From: Comamonadaceae bacterium 2PF
Lineage (GTDB): Bacteria > Pseudomonadota > Gammaproteobacteria > Burkholderiales > Burkholderiaceae_C
Assembly (NCBI GenBank): GCA_005502875.1
Contig: SCMV01000003.1
Coordinates: forward strand, 62,001-126,000
Length of the DNA stretch: 64,000 nucleotides
Direction: 5' to 3'
Shown here: positions 2,377-48,331 of the stretch, piece by piece
Layout of the letters: every line of letters begins with the position of its first letter
Numbering within the stretch: the stretch's first letter is position 1
Made by a program: the position numbers and the translations under genes
The notes under the pieces: model-generated
Seen by the model: only the letters and a program-made list of their open reading frames with translations
Databases searched by the model: none
What the model was told of the DNA's origin: nothing

Positions 2377-4773
2377 TCAAGGCTGCCCGGATCGGGTCAT
2401 GCCTTGCGCGAGCAGGGTGTGAAGGTCCTGGGCCCTGAAGGGCTTGTGCAGCACCGGCAGGCCACTGGCCGCGAGTTCCGCCAGCTGCTGCGGTGATGTG
2501 TCACCCGTGATGATCAGCGCAGGCAGACCGGGCTGATGCTGGCGCAGGTGGCTCACGACATCGCGGCCGCTGCCATCCGGCAGGCGGTGGTCCGACACCA
2601 CCATGTCCCAATGCTGCGGCGCTTGCGAGCGGACCCAGCCCAGGCTGTGGCCCGCCACGGCCTCGAGCCCCCAGTTGCGAAGCCACAGCACCAGGCTCTC
2701 ACCCAGGGCCTCGTCGTCCTCGATCACCAGCACCCGCTTGCCGTCCAGGCGGTCGGGCGTCGGGGCTTGCGACGCGGCCGTGGCAGGGCCCATGGCCAGC
2801 GTGGTGGCGGGCAGGCTGACGGCGAAACACGAGCCACGCCCGACCCTGGACTGCACCCGCAGCGGATGTTCCAGCACCTGTGCGGCGCGTTGCACGATGG
2901 CCAACCCCAGCCCCAGGCCTTGTGAGCGCTCGCGGCCCGGGTTGCCCAGTTGCACGAATGCCTCGAAGATGCGGGGCTGGTCTTCAGGGCGGATGCCAGG
3001 GCCGGTGTCCCAGACTTGCACCTCCCACAGGTGTCCGGGTGTTTCGCAAGGCGAGGCAGGTTTGCCTCGGCGGCGCACGCTCACCAGCACCCCGCCTTGT
3101 TGCGTGTGGCGGATGGCGTTGCCCACGAGGTTGCGCAACACCTGCTCGAGCAGCACGGGGTCGGTCCAGGCGATGGCCTGTGTGCGGCGCACGCGCAGCT
3201 GCAGGTTTTTCTGGCGCGCGGCCTCGGCCTCGTGCGATGCGACGGCCTCGAGCAGGGTTTGCAGGTGCACGCGCCGGCGCTGCACTTCCACGGTGCCCGA
3301 GTCCAGCCGAGACAGGTCCAGCAGGCCCTTGAGCAGGCTCTCCATGGAGCGCACCGCCCGCGTCAGCCGGTCTGCCAGGCTGCGCACCGTCGGGTCGGTC
3401 ACCTGCACGCGCAGCAGGTCGGTGATCAGGCCGATGGCCGCCACCGGTTGACGCAAGTCGTGGCTGGCAGACGCCAGGAAATGGCTCTTGGCGGCGTTGG
3501 CTGCGGCCAGCTCTCGGGTGCGCTCGGCCACCTTGTGTTCGAGTTGCTGGTTGGCTTCTTCGATGTCGTCGAAGGCCTTGACCACGCGCTGCACCACCAT
3601 CAGCACGAACGAGGGCGAGGCCAGCGGGATCATCCAGCCCATCCAGTGGTTGAAGTTGACCTGGCCGATGACGCGCCCGAAGATGAAATCGTGCACCCCG
3701 GCCACCAGCAAGGCGGCCCAGCCCACGGCCAGCCCGGTGTGCATCGACGAGCGCAGGCCTTCGCGCAGCACCCATTGACCCATCAGCCAGATCGAGGGCG
3801 GCAGCGTGAGGATCAGCGCGCCTTGCAGGTACCCCCGCGTCAAGCGCAGGTCGGGGTCAAAGGGCAGGGCGAGCACGCCCAGCAAGGGGAAGCCGATCAC
3901 CACAGCCCACAGGACCCGGTTGAACCAGTTCAGGTGCCGCCCGACCAGGGCCATCACGAACCAGCCTTGCAAGCATGCCGTGAGCACGTGGGCCAGGAAG
4001 TACAGCCACGATTCCGCGCCGACCGACAGGCCGAGGTCTTCGGTGATGAAGTAGCGGCAGTTGCGCAAGCCGCCCACCAGGATCATCAGGCCGAAGAGGC
4101 CAGCGGCCGCTTCCTGGCGCCGCATCCACCACAGCAGCACCACGAACATCGAGAACGCGATCCAGATCAGGTTGAGCACCACGAGCGCATCGCGCGTGAG
4201 AAAGCGCAGCATCAGGTGGTCGTGTTGCAGGTCGGCCTTGGGCGCCAGCACCGCAGGCGACATGCCGCCTTGTTGCACGGCCTGGATCTCGATCTCCAGC
4301 GAGTTGTGGCCGGCGTTGAGCAGGCGGCCCGGCACGTCGATGAGCGATGGGCCCGGCAAGCCCAGCCAGCCTGGGCGTGGCAGCGTGCTTTGCAGCAACT
4401 CGCCATTGAGCCAGATGCTGTGCACGTAGTTCAGGTAGTCGATGCGCAGGGACCAGGGAGCGCTCCTGGCGCTTTGAACCACGTCGTCGCTGACTTCGAA
4501 GTTCAGGCGGTAGCGGCCGATGCCTGCTGCTTGCAACCCAGCGGGTTTCCAGCTGTCAGGCAGGCTCACCGCCACAGGCTGGTCGGCCAGCACCGCGCCG
4601 CTGACGTCTTGCATCCACAGGCGTTGCGCCGACAGCCAGCGCACACCGCTGGCATCGGACGGCGGTGGCGGTTGCAGCCAGAAGAAGGTCAGCAGCGCCA
4701 GCGCCAGCAGCCACAGCCCGCCCACCCAGCTTTGGGTCAGCGAGCGCAGGAGGGTTGGCAGCAAAGGCTTCAT
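2377..4773 (-). CDS. Hybrid sensor histidine kinase with 7TM sensory region and C-terminal receiver
   Basis: 798 residues from the MKPLLPTLL start, which opens with a membrane anchor; an in-frame upstream extension of 49 residues looks non-coding. A periplasmic jelly-roll-like region (about 45-215) is followed by a 7-helix membrane block (about 220-400), a short coiled coil, and a HisKA domain with H438 in SHDLRQP. An HATPase domain follows with an N-box (NLVGNAIRH), G1 (DTGPGI) and G2 (GLGLGLAI). A receiver domain ends the protein, with phospho-acceptor D728 in SDHRLPDG. The layout matches 7TMR-DISM hybrid kinases. The ligand is unknown. It faces the LuxR-type regulator gene at 1666. Confidence 0.9.
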   Translation of the reverse strand: MKPLLPTLLRSLTQSWVGGLWLLALALLTFFWLQPPPPSDASGVRWLSAQRLWMQDVSGAVLADQPVAVSLPDSWKPAGLQAAGIGRYRLNFEVSDDVVQSARSAPWSLRIDYLNYVHSIWLNGELLQSTLPRPGWLGLPGPSLIDVPGRLLNAGHNSLEIEIQAVQQGGMSPAVLAPKADLQHDHLMLRFLTRDALVVLNLIWIAFSMFVVLLWWMRRQEAAAGLFGLMILVGGLRNCRYFITEDLGLSVGAESWLYFLAHVLTACLQGWFVMALVGRHLNWFNRVLWAVVIGFPLLGVLALPFDPDLRLTRGYLQGALILTLPPSIWLMGQWVLREGLRSSMHTGLAVGWAALLVAGVHDFIFGRVIGQVNFNHWMGWMIPLASPSFVLMVVQRVVKAFDDIEEANQQLEHKVAERTRELAAANAAKSHFLASASHDLRQPVAAIGLITDLLRVQVTDPTVRSLADRLTRAVRSMESLLKGLLDLSRLDSGTVEVQRRRVHLQTLLEAVASHEAEAARQKNLQLRVRRTQAIAWTDPVLLEQVLRNLVGNAIRHTQQGGVLVSVRRRGKPASPCETPGHLWEVQVWDTGPGIRPEDQPRIFEAFVQLGNPGRERSQGLGLGLAIVQRAAQVLEHPLRVQSRVGRGSCFAVSLPATTLAMGPATAASQAPTPDRLDGKRVLVIEDDEALGESLVLWLRNWGLEAVAGHSLGWVRSQAPQHWDMVVSDHRLPDGSGRDVVSHLRQHQPGLPALIITGDTSPQQLAELAASGLPVLHKPFRAQDLHTLLAQGMTRSGQP

Positions 4774-4970
4774 GGAGGCGGGGCAGGGGCGCGTGGTGCG
4801 CCATTGTGCGCATTTCAAGCCCACCCGCGAACCCTTTGCGGGGCTTCCCGCTGTGACGCGGGCGGATGCAGTGATATGACGTGGGCTGTGCCCCTTGTTT
4901 CGGGGCTCAACACCAGGCACGTTTGCTGCAATGGTGGAACGCAGGGTCTGGTTTGATCTGGAGGGCTGAC

Positions 4971-6002
4971 ATGAGTGGCTGCACCGATCTGGTTCCGGTT
5001 GGCCGGGACACCGTGGAAGGCAAGTGGGAATCGCGCCATCCCGGGCGCATCCCGATCGCGCACATGCGCCATGTCTACCGGCTCGACGAGGTCGAGCGAC
5101 GGCTGGGCAAGTTGCCCGCCCGCGACCACGAAGCCCTTCGTGCCACCTACGAGCGCATGCTCGAAAAAGGCCCCGAGCGCTTCCAGGTCAAGCCCTCAGG
5201 CCTGCCCGCGATGGACCACCTCTACGACGAGCTGCCCAACTTCCACGAGGTGCTCGACGACCTCAAGCGCCAACTCGCCCTGTGCAGCGACAGCCGCGAC
5301 GCGCTCGAGCTCACGCCCATGCTGCTGCTGGGCCCGCCCGGTGTCGGCAAGACCCACTTTGCGCGCGAGGTGGCGCAGCTGCTGGGCACGGGCATGGGCT
5401 TCATCTCCATGAGCTCCATGACCGCCGGCTGGGTGCTCTCGGGCGCCAGCTCGCAATGGAAGGGCGCGCGCCCCGGCAAGGTCTTCGAGACGCTGGTGGA
5501 CGGCCAGTACGCCAACCCCGTGATGGTGGTCGACGAGATCGACAAGTCGGGTGGCGAGCACGCTTACGACCCGCTGGGCTCGCTCTACAGCCTGCTTGAG
5601 CACGACACGGCTGGCAGCTTCACCGACGAGTTCGCCGAGGTGGCCATCGACGCCAGCCAGGTGATCTGGGTGGCCACGGCGAACGACGTGCGCAGCATCC
5701 CCGATCCCATCCTCAACCGCGTCAACGTCTTCGAAATCGAGGCGCCCGACGAAGCGGCCGCGCGCAAGATCGCCGCCAAGCTCTATCGCAGCATCCGCGC
5801 CGACCACGACTGGGGCCAGCGCTTCGAGCCCGAGCTGTCGGAAGGGGTGTTGGGCGCGATGGCCAAGCTGGCGCCGCGCGAGATGCGTCGCGCGCTGATG
5901 ACCGCTTTCGGCAACGCCAAGCTCGACGGCCGCTTCGCGCTGCAAGAGCGTGACCTGCCGGACGGCGGGCCACGTCGCTCGCCCATCGGCTTCGTGCAAT
6001 GA
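4971..6002 (+). CDS. AAA+ ATPase, Lon-like ATPase module without protease domain
   Basis: 343 residues. Walker A is GPPGVGKTH at about residue 120 and Walker B is MVVDEIDKS at about 185. A sensor-1-like segment VIWVATANDV and a C-terminal lid follow. The ATPase core looks closest to Lon, but no N-terminal substrate domain or Ser-Lys protease domain is present. The start at 4971 is chosen because a GGAGGG ribosome site lies just upstream; an in-frame ATG 90 bases earlier has none. It is followed within 30 bases by a nucleotidase-like gene on the same strand. Its substrate is not known. Confidence 0.85.
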   Translation: MSGCTDLVPVGRDTVEGKWESRHPGRIPIAHMRHVYRLDEVERRLGKLPARDHEALRATYERMLEKGPERFQVKPSGLPAMDHLYDELPNFHEVLDDLKRQLALCSDSRDALELTPMLLLGPPGVGKTHFAREVAQLLGTGMGFISMSSMTAGWVLSGASSQWKGARPGKVFETLVDGQYANPVMVVDEIDKSGGEHAYDPLGSLYSLLEHDTAGSFTDEFAEVAIDASQVIWVATANDVRSIPDPILNRVNVFEIEAPDEAAARKIAAKLYRSIRADHDWGQRFEPELSEGVLGAMAKLAPREMRRALMTAFGNAKLDGRFALQERDLPDGGPRRSPIGFVQ

Positions 6003-6027
6003 GCGAGAGCAACTGAGCCGCGGCGGC

Positions 6028-6999
6028 ATGGGCGATACTGCGTCCATGCCTGCCAGCCTCGACGGCCGCCTGGTGGTGGCCATTTCCTCGCGCGCCCTCT
6101 TTGACTTCGAAGAGGAGAACCGCCTTTTCGAAGGCGCGGACGACCGTGCCTACATGGACCTGCAGCTCGATCGCATCGAGGTGCCCGCCAAGCCGGGCGT
6201 GGCCTTCTCTCTGGTGCGCAAGCTGCTGGGCTTCAACACACCCGAATCAACGCACTCGCCAGCCGACGCGCGCGTCGAGGTCGTCATCCTCTCGCGCAAC
6301 GACCCGGCCTCGGGCCTGCGCGTCTTCCGCTCGGTGTCGCACCACGGGCTCGAGATCGAGCGGGGCGTGTTCACACGCGGGCGCAGCCCCTGGCGCTACC
6401 TCAAGCCCTTGCAGGCCCACCTCTTCCTCTCTGCCAACGAGGCCGATGTGCGCCAGGCCCTGGCCGCAGGCGTGCCCGCCGCGCGCGTGCTGCCGCATGC
6501 AGCCCGCGCGGGCGACGCCCACCCTGACGAGGTGCGCATCGCCTTCGACGGCGACGCCGTGCTGTTCTCCGACGAGGCCGAGCGCGTTTTCCAGCAAGCC
6601 GGTCTGGGCGCCTTCCAGGACCACGAGATCGCGCGGGCGCGCAAGCCCCTGCCCGATGGGCCGTTTCGACCGTTGCTTCAGGCCCTGCACGACCTGCGCC
6701 GCGCCATCGAACAACCAGGCGCCTCGCCCATGCGCATCCGCACCGCGCTGGTGACGGCGCGAGGTGCTCCGGCACATGAGCGCGCCATCCGCACCCTGAT
6801 GGACTGGGGCATCGAGGTCGATGAGGCCATGTTCCTGGGTGGCCTGCCCAAAGGCGAGTTCCTGCGCGAGTTCGAGCCGGACTTCTTCTTCGACGACCAG
6901 ACCGGCCACGTCAACAACGCCGCGCCGCACGTGCCGGCCGGGCACGTCGCCGCTGGTGTCGCCAACTTGCAAAACGCCGAAAGCCCTCAGCGGGGCTGA
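6028..6999 (+). CDS. 5'-nucleotidase family protein
   Basis: 323 residues from the ATG at 6028; a second ATG at 6046 is an equally possible start. The sequence resembles the cytosolic 5'-nucleotidase (NT5C1-type) family: LVVAISSRALFDFEEEN near the start, DDRAYMDLQLDR next, and a conserved C-terminal FFFDDQTGHV segment. Such enzymes dephosphorylate nucleoside monophosphates. It lies in a probable operon between the AAA+ ATPase (25-base gap) and the 110-residue unknown protein. The family call comes from recalled motif resemblance, and substrate specificity cannot be read. Confidence 0.8.
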   Translation: MGDTASMPASLDGRLVVAISSRALFDFEEENRLFEGADDRAYMDLQLDRIEVPAKPGVAFSLVRKLLGFNTPESTHSPADARVEVVILSRNDPASGLRVFRSVSHHGLEIERGVFTRGRSPWRYLKPLQAHLFLSANEADVRQALAAGVPAARVLPHAARAGDAHPDEVRIAFDGDAVLFSDEAERVFQQAGLGAFQDHEIARARKPLPDGPFRPLLQALHDLRRAIEQPGASPMRIRTALVTARGAPAHERAIRTLMDWGIEVDEAMFLGGLPKGEFLREFEPDFFFDDQTGHVNNAAPHVPAGHVAAGVANLQNAESPQRG

Positions 7000-7029
7000 G
7001 CACCACATCTGCCCCAATAGGAGCCTGAC

Positions 7030-7362
7030 ATGAGCGACGACTTGGGTGACTTCTTTGCGCTGCCGCCCTTCAAGCCGGACGAGGCCCTGGTGCAACTGCG
7101 CCGTCAGCTCAAGGAGCTGAAGCTGCAGGAGCAGCCTGGCAGCGCGCCCCACCGCTTCGCGCTCAAGGGCGTGGTGGTGGCCGAGTTGCAAGTGGCGGCC
7201 ATGACCGGTGACGCGCCCAAGCCTGCCCTGGCTGCAGCCGTTGTCAAGCGCCCCTTGCAGCGCCCCGAGTGGGTGCGCCAGCAGCTCGACAGCCGCGATG
7301 CCGTGCGCAAGTGGCTCGATGCGCTCAAGCGCCAGGTGGCCAACTGGAGCGACGACGAGTGA
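7030..7362 (+). CDS. Conserved hypothetical protein, 110 aa
   Basis: A soluble 110-residue protein with a charged amphipathic helix (residues 20-45, VQLRRQLKELKLQ), a short beta-rich middle and a helical C-terminus rich in Trp and Arg. No signal peptide or membrane segment is seen. It follows the nucleotidase-like gene by 30 bases on the same strand, so it is likely the last gene of that operon. A possible ribosome site (AGGAG) lies 9-13 bases before the ATG. I do not recognise a family. Confidence 0.75.
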   Translation: MSDDLGDFFALPPFKPDEALVQLRRQLKELKLQEQPGSAPHRFALKGVVVAELQVAAMTGDAPKPALAAAVVKRPLQRPEWVRQQLDSRDAVRKWLDALKRQVANWSDDE

Positions 7363-7377
7363 GGGAGCAGCCCTGGC

Positions 7378-7953
7378 TCAGCCGGCGTTCGCTTCCTTTT
7401 GCATCTTGGCCCTGAACAGCTCGCGGATGCTGACCTCGCGCGGGCCGGGGATCAGCTCATAGCCTTCTCCCGCCGCGATGGTGCCGGGCGTGCGCACGGC
7501 CAGGTAAAAGCCGCAGAACCCCGACTGGGCCATCATCTTGATCGCATGCTTGAAGCCCAGCTTGGCCTCCAGCTTGAAGCAAGGGCGACGTGGCTCGCTG
7601 ATCGCCAGTGCGCAATCCGCGAAGCGCAGCACATCACCGATGTGGGCCTCGTCTTCCAGCAGGCCAGACAGCGTCAGGTTCTCGCCCAGCGAGCCCGCCG
7701 GCAGCGCCTCGCCCCAGGCCTGCAGGCCAGCTTGGGCGCGCACCGTCTGCCAGAAGGCGTAGTGCTCGATCGGGTATGCGTAGACCGCTTTGCTCAGGCC
7801 ACCGTGAACGCTGAGGTCGGCCTGCTCGTCGCCCGCCAGGCCCAGCGCCTTGACCTCGATGCGATCGGGGTGGGCTTCGGTGCTCACCGGCTGTTTGCCG
7901 ATGGCCGTCAGGATGCGGCGCCCCTGGATCTCGACGTGGCGGGCCTGGGCCAC
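7378..7953 (-). CDS. MOSC domain protein (YiiM-like)
   Basis: 191 residues from a GTG codon. The conserved MOSC features are visible: GLAGDEQADLSVHGG, YPIEHYAFW, SLGENLTLSG and the IGDVLRF...ISEPRRPCFKLE segment whose cysteine is the likely cofactor ligand. YiiM-type proteins use a molybdenum cofactor and are linked to resistance to N-hydroxylated bases. The frame stays open upstream of the GTG and encodes RRLLSVNV, a stretch usually found at the N-terminus of this family. No ATG, GTG or TTG codon lies there, so the true start is uncertain. It is convergent with the 110-aa gene. Confidence 0.87.
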   Translation of the reverse strand: MAQARHVEIQGRRILTAIGKQPVSTEAHPDRIEVKALGLAGDEQADLSVHGGLSKAVYAYPIEHYAFWQTVRAQAGLQAWGEALPAGSLGENLTLSGLLEDEAHIGDVLRFADCALAISEPRRPCFKLEAKLGFKHAIKMMAQSGFCGFYLAVRTPGTIAAGEGYELIPGPREVSIRELFRAKMQKEANAG

Positions 7954-8099
7954 GTTGACGGACAGCAGGCGGCGGGCGGAGATGAAAAGGTGACGGCGCT
8001 CATGGGCTGAGACGATACCCCAGTCGCCAAGTCCTGGGTGGTGCCCATGTCGGCCGGCCCGGGTGGCCTGGGGGCATCAGGCGGTCTCTGGCGGGGCCC

Positions 8100-9287
8100 T
8101 CAACCCCGTTTGGACGAGGTCCAGGGCAGCGGCGTCACCTGCGCCGCCATCGCATTGAAGCCGACCACGCAGGGCTCGCCCGGCTGCCAGTTCATCTGCT
8201 CGATGGCCTGGCGCGTGACCAGCCCCCAGATCTGCGCGCCGGCCTTGAGCTCGAGCCGTTCGTCGAACTCGCGCGCAAGCTCCACGCCCACGGCGCCATA
8301 GGTGCCGCTCTGCCCGGCCAGCATCACCTGGGTGATGCGCCCGCGCAGCACGTTGGTGTTGCTGCTGTCGGTGGGCACCTCGCGATGCAGGCTCACGTCG
8401 CGGGCGCGCACCTTCAGGCGCACGCGGGTGCCGACGGGGTGCAGCGTGGCGGGCACGGTCACGCATTGCCCGCAGATGTCGACCTCGCTGATCACCCATT
8501 CGATGTCGTGCCGCGTGACCGCGCCTTCGAGGATGCTGCCGGCGTGAAAGCCCTCCAGGAAAGTTGACAGCGAGACGTCGGACAGCACCTGGGCGATCGG
8601 CCCGGCGCCTGCCATGCGCCCGTCGTGCAGGATGACCACGTCATCGGCCATGCGCACGACCTCTTCCATGCGTGGCGTGGCCATCAGCACCGGCAGGTGG
8701 AAGCGGTGCGCGACCTGGGCGAGCAGCTCCAGCAACTCGGGACGCTCCGGGTCGGGCACGCGACCGAGCGGGTCGTCCATGAGCAGGCCCTGCGGATCGG
8801 CGGCGAGGGCCCGACCGAGCGCGGCGCGCACGCGCTGCGAGGCGTTGAGCTCGTGGGGGCGGCGCTCCATCATGGCGCTGAGGTCGAGCCACTTGACCAG
8901 TGAGGGCACGTCCAGCCCAGCAGCGACCTTCATGCGCGAGCCCTGCGCCCGGGCCCCGTAGGCCAGGTTGCGCTCGATCGTCAGGTGCGGGAAGAGGTGC
9001 GCCTCGGCGTCGAGCCAGCCCAGCCGGCGCTGGTGTGGCGGCAGGTTCAAGCCGCGCCGGGATTCGAACAAGGCGTCGGCACCCAGGGCCACCCGCCCCG
9101 CGATGACCGGGCGCAGGCCCGCCACGCCTTCCAGGATGGCCCGCTGCCCGTTCTCGACCCGACCGACCAGTGCGCTGACGCGACCTGGCAAGGCGCGCAG
9201 CTGTGCCTGCACCTCCATGCCGGGTTGGCGCACGTGCAGGTCAACGCTCAGGCTGCGCGGCAGGCGCGAGGGGCTGTCGCTGCTCAT
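8100..9287 (-). CDS. ModC-like ABC subunit with degenerate nucleotide-binding motifs
   Basis: 395 residues with the order of a ModC ATPase (ABC domain, then TOBE domain from about residue 260), and its start overlaps the end of modB in an ATGA. Every catalytic motif is changed. Walker A reads GRVENGQRA (residues 42-50), with Lys and Thr replaced by Gln and Arg. The Q-loop is WLDAEAHLF with Gln lost, the signature LSGGQ is LNASQ, Walker B is LLMDDP with Glu changed to Asp, and the switch His is gone (ATPRMEE). The overall fold pattern (LFPHLTIERNLAYG, ALGRALAADP) remains. The frame is intact, so this is a preserved pseudo-ATPase rather than obvious decay. Confidence 0.85.
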   Translation of the reverse strand: MSSDSPSRLPRSLSVDLHVRQPGMEVQAQLRALPGRVSALVGRVENGQRAILEGVAGLRPVIAGRVALGADALFESRRGLNLPPHQRRLGWLDAEAHLFPHLTIERNLAYGARAQGSRMKVAAGLDVPSLVKWLDLSAMMERRPHELNASQRVRAALGRALAADPQGLLMDDPLGRVPDPERPELLELLAQVAHRFHLPVLMATPRMEEVVRMADDVVILHDGRMAGAGPIAQVLSDVSLSTFLEGFHAGSILEGAVTRHDIEWVISEVDICGQCVTVPATLHPVGTRVRLKVRARDVSLHREVPTDSSNTNVLRGRITQVMLAGQSGTYGAVGVELAREFDERLELKAGAQIWGLVTRQAIEQMNWQPGEPCVVGFNAMAAQVTPLPWTSSKRG

Positions 9288-10018
9288 GGGCGCTCCTGTC
9301 GCCAGTCCATGCGCGCGCTGCCTTGCCAGCGGTGCTGCCACTGCCAGCGCAGCAACTCGCTGAGCAGGATGGCGATGGCGGCCACACCCAGCGACAGCGC
9401 CGCCACCTCCCAGGCCAAGGCCTTCGGTCGGCCAGGCGAGGCCAGGGCCTGCCACAAAGCGAGGGGCACGGTCGGGTCTTCTGCGCCGGCGGTGCCACCC
9501 GCTTGCCCGGCGGCCAGCACCAGCACGGCCCCGGATTCGCCCCAGGCGGCCGCAAACCCCAGCGCCATCGCCGAACCGATCGCCGGCAGCGTCAGCGGCA
9601 ATGCCACGGTGCGCCAGGCGTGCCAGTCGCTGGCGCCAAGGGTGCGGGCCACGGGCAGCAGCATCGGGTCGTGCGCCTCGAAGACGGGGCGCAGCATGCG
9701 CGCCATCATCGGCACCGTCATGATGCAGGCTGCCAGCACGGCGCCCGTGGGGTACAGGGCCACGGCCCAACCCAGGTCCTGGCGCAGCCAGCGGCCCAAG
9801 GCTCCTTGCTCGCCCAGGCCGGTCGTCAGCCAGAAGCCGATGACGGCCGGCGGCAGGCCCAGTGGCAACAGGATGACGGCGTCGAGCAGCACCTTGCCGC
9901 GCCACCTCACGCGGGCCATCCACCAAGCCAAGGTGATCGACAGGGGGGTGGCGATCAGCAGGGTGATGGCGGCCAGTTGCAGGCTCATCCACATCGCGGA
10001 CAGGGCGGCGTGCGACAT
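9284..10018 (-). CDS. modB: Molybdate/tungstate-type ABC permease
   Basis: 244 residues with about five to six hydrophobic segments. The cytoplasmic EAA loop (EAHDPMLLPVARTLGASDWH) is well conserved for docking an ATPase. Family features AVILLPLGLPPAVIGFWL and GFAAAWGESGAVLVLA match ModB. The stop overlaps the start of the ModC-like gene by four bases (ATGA), and the binding-protein gene lies four bases upstream, so the three genes are one transcript. The permease looks intact, in contrast to its ATPase partner. Confidence 0.88.
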   Translation of the reverse strand: MSHAALSAMWMSLQLAAITLLIATPLSITLAWWMARVRWRGKVLLDAVILLPLGLPPAVIGFWLTTGLGEQGALGRWLRQDLGWAVALYPTGAVLAACIMTVPMMARMLRPVFEAHDPMLLPVARTLGASDWHAWRTVALPLTLPAIGSAMALGFAAAWGESGAVLVLAAGQAGGTAGAEDPTVPLALWQALASPGRPKALAWEVAALSLGVAAIAILLSELLRWQWQHRWQGSARMDWRQERP

Positions 10019-10021
10019 CGA

Positions 10022-10867
10022 TCAGCCTTTTGCGTTCTGCCAGCCGGCCACGCCGCGCAGCGTGCCCCGGGCCAAGGGGCGGTCCAGCCAGTCGACCAGG
10101 AGCTTGCCGCCAGGGTGCTTGCCCCGGAAAGAGCGGGCCACCTCGGCGTGGAGCACCAGGGCCGGGTGCCCCTGGAACCAGACCCGGGTGCCGCGCGCCT
10201 GGCCCTGGCGCAGCCAGGCGGCCTGGGTCACCAGCCGGTAGGCCGGTGCGCCCGGGTTGACCTGTTTGTTGCCCAGGCCCGCAGGCGTCGGCAGCGGTTG
10301 CGCGGAAGCTGGCTGAGCCATCAGCTGTGCGGCCAACTGGGCCAAGGGGGAGTCGAGGCCTTGTGGCGCCGAGGGCTCACCCGGCAAACCGGTGTGCCAG
10401 CTGGCCACCCCGGCCGCCTGGGCCGCCAGAACCTGGGCGATGGCGCGCGCCGGGTCCTTTTCTGAGCGGATGCCAGCGGGGTCGTCTGCAGGGCCGACCA
10501 GCCAGACCTCGGTGCGCGCCAGCTTGCGACGGTCGTGGATGAGGCCTTCTTTTTCCAGGTGGCTGGCGCGGGGGTGGCTCAGGAAGAGGCCGACTTCGGC
10601 CTCGCCCGACTCCAGTCGGTCCAGCACCTGGCGACTGGGCGTGGCGTGCCACTGCGCGGCCCAACCCAGGTCGCGCCGCATCGCCGCCCCCCAGCGAGCG
10701 GTCAGCCCGGTGTCGGCGAGCAGCGGGTCGACCGCGACTTCCGGGCTTTCTGCCCGGGGGCGCAGTGCCCAAGCGGGCTGGCACAGGCTGGCGCAGAGGA
10801 TGCCCGAGGCACCCAGCGTGCGCATCAGCAGGGCGCGGCGGACAGCAGATTCGGTCGTCTCGGGCAT
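10022..10867 (-). CDS. Tungstate/molybdate-type periplasmic binding protein, divergent
   Basis: 281 residues from MPETTES, with a twin-Arg-free signal region ending near CQPAWA. The body resembles TupA-type binding proteins: DTGLTARWGAAMRRDLG, LESGEAEVGLFLSHPRASHLEKEG and WLVGPADDPAGI align with the TupA pattern. The usual Thr/Ser-rich oxyanion motif at the mature N-terminus is replaced by EVAVDPLLAD. The ligand may therefore not be tungstate or molybdate. An in-frame ATG at 10966 would extend the protein across a terminator-like hairpin and is not preferred. First gene of the operon with modB and the ModC-like gene. Confidence 0.75.
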   Translation of the reverse strand: MPETTESAVRRALLMRTLGASGILCASLCQPAWALRPRAESPEVAVDPLLADTGLTARWGAAMRRDLGWAAQWHATPSRQVLDRLESGEAEVGLFLSHPRASHLEKEGLIHDRRKLARTEVWLVGPADDPAGIRSEKDPARAIAQVLAAQAAGVASWHTGLPGEPSAPQGLDSPLAQLAAQLMAQPASAQPLPTPAGLGNKQVNPGAPAYRLVTQAAWLRQGQARGTRVWFQGHPALVLHAEVARSFRGKHPGGKLLVDWLDRPLARGTLRGVAGWQNAKG

Positions 10868-11215
10868 GGTGAAGGGTGAAAAAACGCAGGCAGAAGTGTG
10901 CCTGCAGCCAGCGACAGGCCTCGTCATGGCTGTCCCGCAGTTGTCCTCAGTTGTATCAGCATCCAAAAAAAGGGCGTTTCCGTGACGCTTTGCCGCCCTC
11001 GCCCTGGGGGCACCCCTGGACGCCCCACGGACGAGGGGGCAGGCGCGAATCGGTCCGATCGTCTAAACTACGAGGTTCCCGCCGAGCGCCTTCGGGCGTC
11101 CTCAGGACACAGCCGACGGGGTGTCGAGAGCGTTGCCGTGACCGGGCCCGAGCTGGCCAAGCCAGGTTGCCGCAGCGCTGTCGAGACCTCGTTTTTTACT
11201 TTCTGGAGCCTTGTC
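10868..11215. promoter_or_regulatory. Divergent intergenic region between the ABC importer operon and pckG
   Basis: This 348-base gap must hold the promoters of the leftward importer operon and rightward pckG. On the left it contains a hairpin with a T-run (10879-10905). Near 11060-11080 a TAAACT-like -10 element may serve pckG, leaving a leader of roughly 150 bases. I see no gene inside it. Confidence 0.5.
10879..10905 (-). terminator. Terminator-like hairpin in the leader of the ABC importer operon (possible attenuator)
   Basis: On the minus strand a 7-bp stem GCAGGCA/TGCCTGC with a 6-base loop is followed by G and six T residues, ending about 12 bases before the ATG at 10867. No gene lies upstream on this strand that it could terminate, so it may attenuate the operon. 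No known metal or cofactor riboswitch was recognised upstream. Confidence 0.5.
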
Positions 11216-13075
11216 ATGTCGAACGTTGCTGCTCAGGTCAATGCACCTGCCTACGTCAAAAACACCAAGCTGATTGCCTGGGTGGCCGAGATGGCCGCCC
11301 TGCTGCAACCCAAGGACGTCGTCTGGTGCGACGGCACCACCGAAGAGTACGACCGCCTGTGCGCCCAGCTCGTGGCCGCCGGCTCGTTCAAGAAGCTCAA
11401 CCCCGAGCTGCGCCCCAACTCCTACCTGGCCTGGACCCACCCGTCCGACGTGGCCCGCGTCGAAGACCGCACCTTCATCTGCTCCGAACGCAAGGAAGAT
11501 GCCGGCCCCACCAACAACTGGTGCGAGCCCGCTGAAATGCGCGCCAAGCTGCAAACCGGTGAAAACGCCCTGTTCAAGGGCGCCATGGCTGGCCGCACGA
11601 TGTACGTCGTGCCCTTCTCGATGGGCCCCCTGGGTTCGGACATCGCCCACATCGGCGTCGAGCTGTCCGACAGCGCCTACGTGGCCGTCAACATGAAGCT
11701 CATGACCCGCATGGGCCGTGGCGTGATCGACGTGCTGGGCGCCGATGGCGAATTCGTGCCTTGCGTGCACACGGTTGGCGCCCCCCTGGCCGAAGGTCAG
11801 AAGGACGTGGCCTGGCCTTGCAACCCCGACACCAAGTACATCGTCCACTACCCCGCCACGCGCGAGATCTGGTCCTACGGTTCGGGCTACGGCGGCAACG
11901 CGCTGCTGGGCAAGAAGTGCTTCGCCCTGCGCATCGCCTCGACCATGGGCCGCGACCAGGGCTGGCTGGCCGAGCACATGCTGCTGCTGGGCGTGACCAA
12001 CCCCGAAGGCAAGAAGTACCACGTCGCTGCCGCCTTCCCCTCGGCCTGCGGCAAGACCAACTTCTCCATGCTGATCCCGCCCGAGGGCTACAACGGCTGG
12101 AAGGTCACCACCATCGGTGACGACATCGCCTGGATCAAGCCCGCTGCCGACGGCAAGCTCTACGCCATCAACCCCGAAGCCGGTTACTTCGGCGTGGCCC
12201 CGGGCACCAACACCCTGACCAACTTCAACTGCATGAAGTCGCTCGACCGCGACGTGATCTTCACGAACGTGGCCCTGACCGATGACGGCGACGTGTGGTG
12301 GGAGTCGATGACCGACGAGGCCCCGGCTCACCTGATCGACTGGCAAGGCAACGACTGGACCCCGGCCATCGGCAAGGAAAAGGGCGTCAAGGCCGCTCAC
12401 CCGAACGCCCGCTTCACCGTGGCCGCCACCAACAACCCGGTGCTCGACCCCGAGTGGGACAATCCCGCTGGCGTGCCCATCGATGCCTTCATCTTCGGCG
12501 GCCGCCGCTCGACCACCGTGCCCCTGGTGACCGAAGCTCGCGACTGGACCGAAGGCGTGTACATGGCCGCCACCATGGGCTCTGAAACCACCGCTGCCGC
12601 CTTCGGTCAGCAAGGCGTGGTGCGCCGCGACCCGTTCGCCATGCTGCCCTTCATGGGCTACAACATGAGCGACTACTTCCAGCACTGGCTGGACCTGGGC
12701 GCCAAGCTGCAGGCCTCGGGCGCCAAGCTGCCCCAGATCTACTGCGTGAACTGGTTCCGCAAGGGCGCCGATGGCAAGTTCGTGTGGCCTGGCTACAGCG
12801 AAAACATGCGCGTGCTGGAGTGGATGCTGGGCCGACTGCAAGGCAAGGCCGGTGGCGTGGAAAACGCCTTTGGCGTGAGCCCCACCTACGAAGACATCAA
12901 CTGGAATGGCCTGAACTTCACCAAGGAGCAGTTCCAGTCGGTGATCGGTGTGGACAAGGCTTCCTGGCAGCAAGAGCTCAAGCTGCACGACGAGCTGTTC
13001 ACCCAGCTGTCGCACAACCTGCCCGCCGCCATGCCCGCCACCAAGGCCAAGCTGGAGCAACGCCTGGCTGCCTGA
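11216..13075 (+). CDS. pckG: Phosphoenolpyruvate carboxykinase (GTP)
   Basis: 619 residues, full length for the GTP-dependent enzyme (EC 4.1.1.32), which interconverts oxaloacetate and PEP at the start of gluconeogenesis. Visible motifs include the kinase-1 loop [13 protein letters not shown], the Mn-binding region, FIFGGRRS with the guanine/phosphate-binding arginines, and the C-terminal [15 protein letters not shown]. The start [16 protein letters not shown] is preceded by TTTCTGGAGCC, a usable ribosome site. It is monocistronic, bounded by the divergent importer operon and a strong terminator. Confidence 0.97.
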
Positions 13076-13139
13076 TGGGGCTGTTCGGGCCCGATCGGCC
13101 CTCGGCTGCGGGTTCGCCCCCGCGCCGATCTGGCACCCA

Positions 13140-13161
13140 CCCCGCTTCGGCGGGGTTTTTT
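13140..13161 (+). terminator. Rho-independent terminator after pckG
   Basis: CCCCGC stem, TTCG tetraloop and GCGGGG return strand, followed by six T residues, 65 bases after the pckG stop. Confidence 0.9.
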
Positions 13162-13305
13162 GTGTCCGAAGCGGCGTGGCCGGGTCCCTTTTCCCCCAAG
13201 CAAGGGGTGGGGCGCTCGACCAGACGGTGTGAGAATTTGTCACGTTTACCCAGCATTTGTGTTGGGTGTTCATTTGTTCGGGGGAGCTCCCCCCAGGGAG
13301 TCAAC

Positions 13306-13833
13306 ATGTTCGTCCGCAACCTCATCGCCGCATCCGCTTTCGTGATGGCCTCCGTCTCGGCCCACGCTGCGGTTTTTGGCCCCTTCTCCAACCTGGGCGT
13401 CGTCGGCGCCGAGGCCGTGTCCTTCGGCGGCTTCAGCCGCTTCGAAGAAGCCACCCCGTTTGAAATCTCCTACGACTTCAGCCTGTCTGCCGCTTCCGGC
13501 CTGACGGGTTTCATCGGCCAGGCTGGCACCGACTTCGAACTGATCGAAGCCACCACCACCGAGTTCACCCTGACGCCCATCACCCTGGAAAACATCCTGG
13601 TTGACGGCGTGGCTGCCACCGCTTTCGTGGCCCAGGGCGGCGGCTTTGCTTTCTCCTTCGCTGGCCTGAGCAGCGGTGACCACACCCTGACGGTGCGCGG
13701 TGTTGGCGTGCCCGAGTACGGCGCCTTCGTCGGCAACGTCACCGCCGCCATCCCCGAGCCCACCACCTACGCCCTGCTGCTGGCTGGCCTGGGTGTGGTC
13801 GGTGCCGTGGCTTCGCGTCGTCGCGCTGCCTGA
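13306..13833 (+). CDS. PEP-CTERM sorting-domain surface protein
   Basis: 175 residues. A Sec signal peptide (about residues 1-21, ending SAHA) precedes a beta-rich body with no cysteine. The C-terminus is the exosortase sorting signal: the PEP motif (IPEPTTYALL), a hydrophobic helix and a terminal RRR cluster. Such proteins are processed by exosortase and exported to the outer surface or matrix. The ATG at 13306 has GGGAG about 8 bases upstream. It stands alone between two terminators. Its specific role is unknown. Confidence 0.88.
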   Translation: MFVRNLIAASAFVMASVSAHAAVFGPFSNLGVVGAEAVSFGGFSRFEEATPFEISYDFSLSAASGLTGFIGQAGTDFELIEATTTEFTLTPITLENILVDGVAATAFVAQGGGFAFSFAGLSSGDHTLTVRGVGVPEYGAFVGNVTAAIPEPTTYALLLAGLGVVGAVASRRRAA

Positions 13834-46021: not shown

Positions 46022-48331
46022 TCAGGCCTTCAGGGTGTCGGGGCGAATGGGCAGGTTACGCACGCGTTGGCCCGTGGCCGCCGCGATGGCGTTGGCCACG
46101 GCCGGTGCCAGAGGGGGAACGCCCGGCTCACCGATGCCGGTGGGCTTCTCGCTGGAGGGCACGATGTGCACCTCCACACGGGGCATCTCGTTGATGCGCA
46201 GCAGTTGCTGGTCGTGGAAGTTCGACTGCTCGACCACGCCGTCCTTGAGCGTGATGCCGCCGTAGAGCGCGGCCGTCAACGCAAAGCCCACGCCGCCCTC
46301 CACCTGCGCCCGCACCACGTCCGGGTTGACGACGGTGCCGCAGTCCACGGCGCACACGACGCGGTCCACACGCAGCGAGCCATCGGCCTGGATGGACACC
46401 TCGGCCACCTCGGCCACGTACGAGCCGAAAGACTCGTGCACGGCCACGCCTCGGCCACGGCGAACGCCTTTTTCCGCACTTTTCTGGCCCTTCTTCAGCG
46501 GCGTGCCCCAGCCGGCCTTCTCGGCGGCCAGTTTGAGCACCGCCGCGTGGCGCGGGTGCTTGCCCAGCAGGGCCAGGCGGTAGGCCACCGGGTCTTGCCC
46601 GGCGGCAGCGGCGAGCTCGTCGATGAAGGTCTCGGTGGAGTAGGCCGTGTGCGTCGAGCCCACCGAGCGCCACCAGTGCGAAGGCACCGCGATGTCGGTG
46701 GGGGTGTGCAGGTCCACGTGCAGGGCCGGGAAGCCATAGGGCAGGTTGGCGGCGCCTTCAACCGACACGGGGTCGATGCCATCTTTGACCATGCCGTTGA
46801 AGGCCGTGCCCGCCACGATGGACTGGCCCACCAGCCGATGGCGCCAGCCGGTGACGCGGTTCTGCGCGTCCAGCGCGGCCTCGATCGTGTGGTGGAAGGC
46901 GGGGCGGTAGTAACCGCCCTTCATGTCGTCCTCGCGCAACCACACCATCTTCACGGGGGCTCGGCCGTTGATGGCCTGCGCGATGCTGACGGCTTCGCGC
47001 ACGTAGTCGGCGTCCTTGCTGGCGCGCCGCCCGAAACTGCCGCCCGCGTACAGCATGTGGATGGTGACCTGCTCGGGTTGGATGCCCAGCTGCTGCGCCA
47101 CCATGGCCTGGTCGATGCTCTGGAACTGCTCGCCGTTCCAGATCTCGCACGTGCCCTGGCCGAGCTTGACCACGCAGTTCAGCGGCTCCATCGAGGCGTG
47201 CGCCAGGAAGGGGAAGTCGAAGCTGGCGCGCAAGGTGCGTGCGGCCTGGCTGAACGCCGCGTTGACGTCGCCCTCGCTGCGCGCCACGGCGCCGGGCTGC
47301 TTGGCCAGCTCGTGGTACTTCGCGAAGATCTCGTCACTGCTCAGTCGAAAGGCGTTCGAATCATCCCATTCGACGACGAGCGCGTCGCGGCCTTTCTTGG
47401 CCGACCAGGTGTCCTTGGCCAGCACGGCCACGCCGTTGGGGATCTGAACCACCTCCACCACGCCCTTGATCGCCTTGGCCTTGGACGCATCGAAGGACTT
47501 GACCTTCGAGCCAAAGCGCGGCGGGTGGGCCACGACGGCGGTCAGCATGCCGGGCAGGTGCACGTCTTGCGTGAAGCGGGCTTTGCCGTTGACCTTCTCG
47601 GCCGAGTCCTTGCGCGAGGCGCGCTTGCCGATGAGCTTGAAGTCCTTCGGGTCCTTGAGCTTGACCTCGGTGGGCACGGCCTGCTTGGAGGCGGCCTCGG
47701 CCAGCTCGCCGAAGCCGGCCTTGCGGCCGCTGCCCGGGTGAGAGACGAGGCCTTCCGAGACCTGTACCTCGGCCGCGGGCACACCCCAGCTTTGTGCGGC
47801 GGCGGCCACCAGCATGGCGCGGGCCGTGGCGCCGGCCTGGCGCATCTGCAGCCACGAGTTGGCCATGGCGGTGCTGCCGCCCGTGCCCTGCATGGGCCCG
47901 AACAGCAGGTTGTTGTAGCGGCTCGGATCGGCCGGTGCGCCTTCGACCTTCACCTGCGGCCAGGCAGCGTCGAGCTCTTCGGCCACCAGCGTGGCGATGC
48001 CGGTGTAGGCACCCTGGCCCATCTCGATGTGCTTGGAGACGACGGTGACCACGCCATCGGTGCCGATGCGCACGAAGGCGTTGGGCTCGAAGGCTGGACC
48101 GGTGGTCGCGGCGGCCGTGGTGGTGAGGCCGGGGCCCGCTGTGGCGGACTTGGCCTGGGCGGTGGACAGCGCACCGGGCAGGAAAACCGCCAGCGTCAGG
48201 CCGGCGCCGCCTTGCAGGAAGCGGCGTCGGCTGTCGTTCTCGATGCGGGGCGCGTTGTTCGGTCCATCGGTGGCGTCGATGGGCGTGGTGTTTTGTGCGG
48301 CGTGTTGAGCCAGGCGTGAAGCGATGCGCAT
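46022..48331 (-). CDS. Molybdopterin-binding large subunit of an IorB-type aldehyde/isoquinoline oxidoreductase
   Basis: 769 residues. A Tat signal ([17 protein letters not shown]) sends it to the periplasm. Mo-cofactor domains include [27 protein letters not shown] and the catalytic Glu in [12 protein letters not shown] near the C-terminus. The layout matches the IorB-type split Mo hydroxylases with two Ald_Xan_dh_C2 repeats. It pairs with the 2Fe-2S subunit gene 11 bases upstream. Substrate unresolved (aldehydes or N-heterocycles). Confidence 0.92.

Follow-up and report, generated by a model that had tools for sequence, protein, structure and literature searches.

On balance, the ModC-like protein pC, encoded on the minus strand at positions 8100 to 9287 of the window, appears to be a true pseudo-ATPase, through which an ancestral molybdate importer has become a non-pumping, membrane-tethered complex serving as a scaffold or regulatory receptor. 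The window is the whole 64,000 nucleotide stretch of DNA that was analysed. It is put forward more tentatively that a ModABC-type importer has turned into a 'transceptor' found across the genus, in which a pseudo-ATPase forms the basis of an inner-membrane receptor or scaffold that does not pump. Its transport pore would no longer be needed, and one lineage has kept only a single helix and the coupling helix, fused to pC. The genus, of which 42 genomes were compared, is probably Aquabacterium.

The locus comprises four co-directional genes (pA, pB, pC and a MOSC gene) running from 10867 down to 7378 on the minus strand of the window. The divergent gene pckG served as a synteny marker and lies outside the system.

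11225..13075, plus strand: pckG, GTP-dependent phosphoenolpyruvate carboxykinase, divergent from pA (NF003253, 996.8 bits)
10022..10867, minus strand: pA, solute-binding-like protein of 281 amino acids with a signal-like N-terminal stretch (by eye)
9284..10018, minus strand: pB, ModB-like permease of 244 amino acids; docking loop retained, GEFG and N[VI]PG motifs gone
9629..9679, minus strand: EAA coupling loop of pB, residues 114-130
8100..9287, minus strand: pC (pseudo-ModC), 395 amino acids, a motif-less ABC ATPase domain followed by a linker and a TOBE-type domain
7378..7953, minus strand: MOSC-domain protein immediately downstream of pC

The spacing between pA and pB is 3 bases and pB overlaps pC by 4 bases. 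The pC frame starts with ATG and encodes 395 amino acids with no internal stop, so the claim made from the sequence alone that the reading frame is kept holds. An Rfam scan of window positions 4500-13500 gave two matches (E up to 1) in or just after pckG, both below the gathering scores, and a riboswitch or other known RNA family was ruled out for that interval. A frame encoding an AAA-type ATPase (named by eye) lies at window positions 5030-6999 on the plus strand; it was found in 23 of 30 genus stretches near pC and the frame following it in 29 of 30.

The degenerate motifs of pC and its C-terminal domain were placed as follows, using the standard names and consensus forms of the ABC motifs.

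9138..9164, minus strand: degenerate Walker A, residues 42-50, GRVENGQRA
9009..9020, minus strand: degenerate Q-loop, residues 90-93, GWLD
8832..8849, minus strand: degenerate ABC signature, residues 147-152, LNASQR (LNASQ being 147-151)
8751..8789, minus strand: degenerate Walker B and D-loop, residues 167-179, GLLMDDPLGRVPD
8667..8684, minus strand: degenerate switch region, residues 202-207, MATPRM
8130..8540, minus strand: C-terminal TOBE-type beta domain, about residues 250-386 (Pfam TOBE below cut-off)

Both the sequence and the aligned columns show Gln for Lys, Arg for Ser/Thr and Glu for the central Gly in Walker A. Asp replaces the Q-loop Gln, Asp replaces Glu in Walker B (residues 167-175, GLLMDDPLG) with the D-loop also changed, and Pro replaces the switch His. 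The losses that the sequence-only reading had listed (Walker A Lys and Thr, Q-loop Gln, signature, Walker B Glu and switch His) were thus confirmed at 8100-9287 on the minus strand.

The ancestry of pC as a ModC is still recognizable. NCBIfam ModC (TIGR02142) remains its best NCBIfam family at 239.6 bits, below the cut-off of 285.05, with an alignment spanning residues 13-381, and Pfam ABC_tran is above its cut-off. The AlphaFold model of pC had a mean pLDDT of 81.6 and a pTM of 0.63. The ATPase domain matched the ModC chain of 2onk with a TM-score by target of 0.82, an rmsd of 3.1 Å and 28% identity. The full-chain fold search placed 3d31 first (rmsd 12.5), and 3d31 and 2onk were also the best solved relatives by profile. 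As the full-chain Foldseek rmsd values were 11-15 Å, only the ATPase-domain match to 2onk is a close superposition. The ABC fold with a C-terminal TOBE domain that characterizes ModC is found in pC by ABC_tran, TIGR02142, the model and the fold search. The earlier claim that the TOBE domain is kept was borne out in outline, with the TIGR02142 alignment reaching residue 381 and the C-terminal part beta-rich in the model, but Pfam TOBE scored 17 bits against a cut-off of 22.3.

A genus-wide search found a pC orthologue in 36 of the 42 genomes; all 36 frames were open and all scored below the TIGR02142 cut-off. In aligned columns the Q-loop Gln was absent from all 36 (Asp in every one), as were the LSGG[QE] signature and the Walker B Glu, where Asp is frequent. 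The switch His was replaced by Pro in 35 and by Asp in one. Unanchored pattern counts gave a D-loop in 9/36 and a switch in 2/36, none of which lay at the motif positions in the aligned columns. The two alignments, A1 and A2, comprised 30 and 22 rows; G024, G218 and G818-G821 joined the orthologue set later to make 36. Walker A is intact in 28 orthologues. The eight which lack it form two clades, the window clade (G000, G033, G028, G001) and a clade of G006, G017, G032 and G035, and the loss maps to two separate changes on the tree. The claim that every ATPase motif is lost therefore stands for the window species and seven others but not for the genus. All 11 canonical ModCs of the genus used as controls carried Walker A, Q-loop, signature and switch, and 10 of them the Walker B Glu, the exception being in G012; the four intact sisters described below carried all motifs. 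The homologue alignment proposed as a check for intact motifs in the lineage found each hydrolysis motif in 0/36, which does not support a reading of the losses as errors. Sequencing error or frameshift was ruled out by identical losses in 36 genomes.

The G012 genome has no pC. Its canonical ModC (L089, G012:C19:53500-65500) has Gly for the Walker B Glu (LLLLDGPL) with Walker A, signature and switch intact, and its family match stops at profile position 315 of 353.

Pairwise Nei-Gojobori dN/dS for pC was 0.05-0.16 in 24 hand-picked pairs, one of which (G007-G818) had a very low pC dS (0.04). The ATPase domain and TOBE part gave similar values. The proposed dN/dS check came out far from 1, and the outcome that would have spoken against a preserved pseudo-ATPase was not seen. 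Compared with active ModC in four pairs, pC was lower each time (0.06/0.16, 0.13/0.18, 0.14/0.20 and 0.12/0.26, pC first). These ratios put pC, as judged from its codons, evidently under purifying selection. With its catalytic residues lost, dN/dS well below 1 and conserved orthologues, pC has the properties of a pseudoenzyme under selection. A pseudogene was ruled out by the open frames and dN/dS. The whole permease gave dN/dS values of 0.05-0.35 (19 pairs).

The pC and MOSC genes of G007 and G818 (L077/L122) were near-identical (dS 0.04 and 0.01) while pB and pA were divergent (dS 0.52 and 0.85), a contrast which looks like recombination within the operon.

The permease has changed as well. 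The pB of the window was below cut-off for both TIGR02141 (153.6 against 182.6 bits) and NF006939 (164.7 against 262 bits). The GEFG and N[VI]PG motifs, present in all three intact-locus and both canonical permeases aligned, were found in none of the 32 whole permeases of the genus. The coupling loop was recognized by pattern in 32/32 (31/32 with a stricter pattern), and in pB of the window the good docking loop previously reported was present as EAHDPMLLPVARTLGAS.

A whole permease accompanies pC in 32 of the 36 genomes. In the other four (G006, G017, G032 and G035, the same four as in the second Walker A loss) the permease consists of one membrane helix and the coupling segment in frame with pC, giving proteins of 468-470 amino acids. 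The fused N-terminal part, 93 codons as compared, has one hydrophobic helix at about residues 23-43 followed by the coupling segment. The start codon of the fusion overlaps the pA stop by 4 bases (ATGA) in all four. The remnant aligned to the permeases of 10 relatives by BLAST with E values of 3e-08 to 7e-04. No Pfam permease domain was found in the G017 fusion protein, the only fusion scanned, and its likeness to a permease rests on BLAST. In the model of the fusion protein pLDDT was below 50 at residues 49-74 and 76-89, and the coupling segment was not placed confidently. The dN/dS of the fused permease part was 0.14-0.27 (five pairs). The loss of the permease motifs and the fusion of a permease stump to pC are both evident in the predicted proteins. 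One helix cannot form a transport path, so in the four fusion species pC drives no pump through the permease. These species, as predicted from their frames, are the strongest argument that pC has another job.

Profile searches at 1e-75 covered 399 genomes of the family and 399 of the order. Outside the genus, four sequences scored 326-354 bits (G391, G167, G119 and G231) and three from other families 255-259 bits (G784, G510 and G759). The 36 orthologues formed one clade with SH-aLRT support of 100 in a quick tree, which carries a long-branch warning, and 100/100 in a careful tree. The sister of this clade was the group of motif-intact ModCs from G391, G167, G119 and G231, which belong to other genera of the family. 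In the larger tree a long stem of 1.15 changes per column leads to the 36; the inner branches are mostly short. The motif loss, as read from the aligned proteins and the tree, evidently predates the divergence of the 36 orthologues.

The sister loci (L113-L116) contain pB, pC and MOSC in the same order as the genus locus. The order is pckG, pA, pB, pC, MOSC in G391; pckG, pA, ModA, pB, pC, MOSC in G167; and ModA, pB, pC, MOSC in G119. In G231 a frame whose sequence is of that ModA type stands before pB, pC and MOSC. The ModA proteins of L114 and L115 scored 188.6 and 168 bits against a cut-off of 62.5. Each intact sister is the sole ModC of its own genome at 1e-60 and all four exceed the ModC cut-off. 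No ModA was found in the genus locus, where the interval between pckG and pB fits pA only, or is a gap of about 400 bases in three pA-less genomes. Since the intact sisters are the sole ModCs of their genomes and some of their loci include ModA, the ancestor of the pC locus was likely an active molybdate importer; ModA would have left the locus later, and most of the genus has another ModC.

The pA protein matched SBP_bac_11 at 22.8 bits, below the 25-bit cut-off, and had no NCBIfam match at 0.01. Lacking a ModA-family match, it does not give the locus a ModA-type binding protein. It was present in 33 of the 36 pC genomes and not found in G021, G024 and G025. MOSC lies beside pC on the same strand in 36/36. 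Three genomes without pC (G012, G020 and G030) keep pckG, pA and MOSC, with pB and pC jointly missing between pA and MOSC (L135, L136 and L137; in L135 about 70 bases separate the matches to pA and MOSC). This pattern indicates that pB and pC are present or missing as a pair in the readable genomes, and that pA and MOSC, which persist side by side there, do not need pC. In G010 the 3.4 kb next to pckG on the side of the locus yielded no match to pA, pB, pC or MOSC. The stretch of G015 has just 272 bases there, and G009 had no pckG match.

An initial search at 1e-30 matched 42 of 61 genomes, with pC orthologues and other ModCs mixed. Within the genus a ModC over the cut-off was found in 33 of the 42 genomes, together with pC in 29, and G021 has pC along with part of a ModC at a contig edge. 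The suggested search for a second ModC in the window genome yielded an intact one (G000:C60, 414.9 bits to TIGR02142, canonical motifs). Six pC carriers (G002, G005, G014, G017, G032 and G036) had no canonical ModC at 1e-60, in assemblies 75-98% complete and of 60-630 contigs. Searches for a MoeA domain were positive in 41 of the 42 genomes (not in G818) and those for a molybdenum-hydroxylase domain in 40 (not in G006 and G032), indicating that molybdenum is used by most of the genus. As the hydroxylase domain was not found in these two of the four fusion genomes, a molybdenum role is not obvious there. A molybdenum-hydroxylase cofactor-binding domain (PF02738) is encoded at window positions 46574-47296 on the minus strand (G000:C33:108574-109296), about 36 kb from the locus.

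The side-chain ligands of the oxyanion in Tub are given as Ser4, Lys60 and Ser40 in the available part of PMC11980592. In the columns read as equivalent by the author, Ser, Lys and Ser occur in 32, 30 and 19 of the 36 orthologues, respectively, and oxyanion binding by many orthologues is plausible. Only the first ligand is kept in the pC of the window, where Lys is replaced by Asn and the other Ser by Ala. This partial loss of the presumed ligands argues against a molybdate sensor here, and oxyanion binding or molybdate sensing by the pC of the window is doubtful.

In the proposed mechanism an active ModC of a molybdate importer would have lost its ATP-hydrolysis residues in the ancestor of the genus pC, which retained the fold, the pairing with the permease and, initially, Walker A. 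The importer would thereby have become a non-pumping inner-membrane complex. The permease or its one-helix remnant would anchor the pseudo-ATPase/TOBE protein at the membrane, with the coupling helix keeping hold of pC, and the complex would work as a regulatory receptor or a scaffold, which might serve the linked MOSC or pA. Nucleotide binding would do no more than signal, and two lineages would manage without it. In these terms pC is predicted to lack ATPase activity and presumably docks physically on the permease, and pumping has probably ceased outside the four fusion species as well. A scaffold or regulatory role of the complex is suggested, and its output may be regulation, MOSC scaffolding or ligand storage. 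The sequence-only reading had offered three possibilities for its putative pseudo-ATPase, namely a borrowed active ATPase, a regulator or a repurposed transporter. The pseudo-ATPase itself was supported by the hydrolysis motifs (0/36) and dN/dS, and the repurposed transporter is the best supported of the three.

Several observations count against the reading of a non-pumping complex. Three non-carriers retain pA and MOSC without pC, Pfam reported no permease domain for the G017 fusion, the coupling segment of the modelled fusion protein had low confidence, two presumed oxyanion ligands are lost from the pC of the window, and two fusion genomes gave no hydroxylase domain. In addition, the whole permease (32/36) and pA (33/36) are what an importer needs, and the 28 orthologues with Walker A could, going by that motif, still bind ATP. 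Along with dN/dS well below 1 and the frequent Asp at the Walker B Glu position, these would suit a locus that goes on importing, either with a slow or unusual ATP cycle or simply through binding ATP, where pA would be the binding protein for a new substrate. Such an importer is unlikely, however, as the Q-loop Gln, signature and switch His are absent in 36/36, Walker A is also lost in the window clade, four species have a single membrane helix and pA was not found in three. In each ABC site one subunit supplies Walker A, Walker B and the switch, and its partner the signature. Because each site draws on both subunits, a mixed dimer of pC and ModC would have no complete site: both composite sites would be half dead, since neither the Walker B/switch side nor the signature is intact in pC. 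This weakens the idea of a permease powered by a borrowed active ATPase, be it canonical ModC or a different one, in a mixed complex that has pC as its partner or regulator, and so do the six carriers without a canonical ModC (assemblies 75-98% complete) and the four without a complete permease. Borrowing is accordingly considered improbable, although 29 of the 36 carriers have a canonical ModC over the cut-off and one more has part of a ModC at a contig edge, the coupling loop is recognizable in all 32 whole permeases, and multitask ATPases have been described for type I importers (available part of PMC7658222).

Slow decay would explain the stepwise losses, with ModA absent from the locus, Walker A lost twice, the permease truncated once and pA missing in three carriers. 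It would also fit the three non-carriers from which pB and pC are gone and the fourth in which the whole locus was not found beside pckG. The locus would then be a relic, slowly being lost after another ModABC took over transport. The open pC frame in 36/42 genomes, the dN/dS of 0.05-0.16, below that of active ModC in 4/4 pairs, and the maintenance of the fused form in four species make this very improbable. The non-pumping pseudo-ATPase complex is the preferred reading.

Compared with the ModABC importer (TIGR02142; 3d31 and 2onk), the locus is alike in domain order, fold, the gene order of permease and ATPase, and ancestry. It differs in the loss of the hydrolysis motifs of pC and the motifs of pB, in having no ModA and in its score below the cut-off. 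The intact sister ModC-MOSC loci share the clade, the linker and TOBE sequence and, in 4/4, the MOSC neighbour, and two of them (G391 and G167) share pckG as neighbour and pA. Their ATPase motifs are all intact, in contrast, and ModA is present in G167 (beside pA) and G119 with a like frame in G231. In SUR1 and FtsEX the ABC architecture is used for something other than solute pumping and an ATP-responsive site is kept; neither is known to descend from a solute importer that lost these motifs. In ABC transporters with one degenerate nucleotide site the second site remains active. The pC gene is unlike these in being the sole ATPase gene of its operon while lacking both the Walker B/switch side and the signature. 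The likeness lies in the loss of catalytic residues from an ABC ATPase domain, degenerate sites being known in heterodimeric ABC proteins (available part of PMC7756269). The TOBE oxyanion binders Mop/Tub, ModG and ModE, as described in the available part of PMC11980592, are similar in their TOBE-type domain and molybdate or tungstate context, but the TOBE domain of pC remains attached to a pseudo-ATPase and has a membrane partner, and its ligand residues are partly lost.

Among the matches listed in a search of the open literature, with subscription papers and preprints outside its scope, there was no paper on a degenerate ModC or the pC locus and no importer whose only ATPase lost these motifs and was kept genus-wide. 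Degenerate ABC sites are familiar from proteins in which a second site is still active; in the pC locus the degenerate protein is encoded by the only ATPase gene of the operon, in 36/42 genomes. Its relatives show the intact state, an intermediate with the hydrolysis motifs lost and Walker A kept, and the end state of a stump-pC fusion, and comparing them allows the change from transporter to non-transporter to be tested. The natural minimal fusion lets the role of the coupling helix be asked without a pore.
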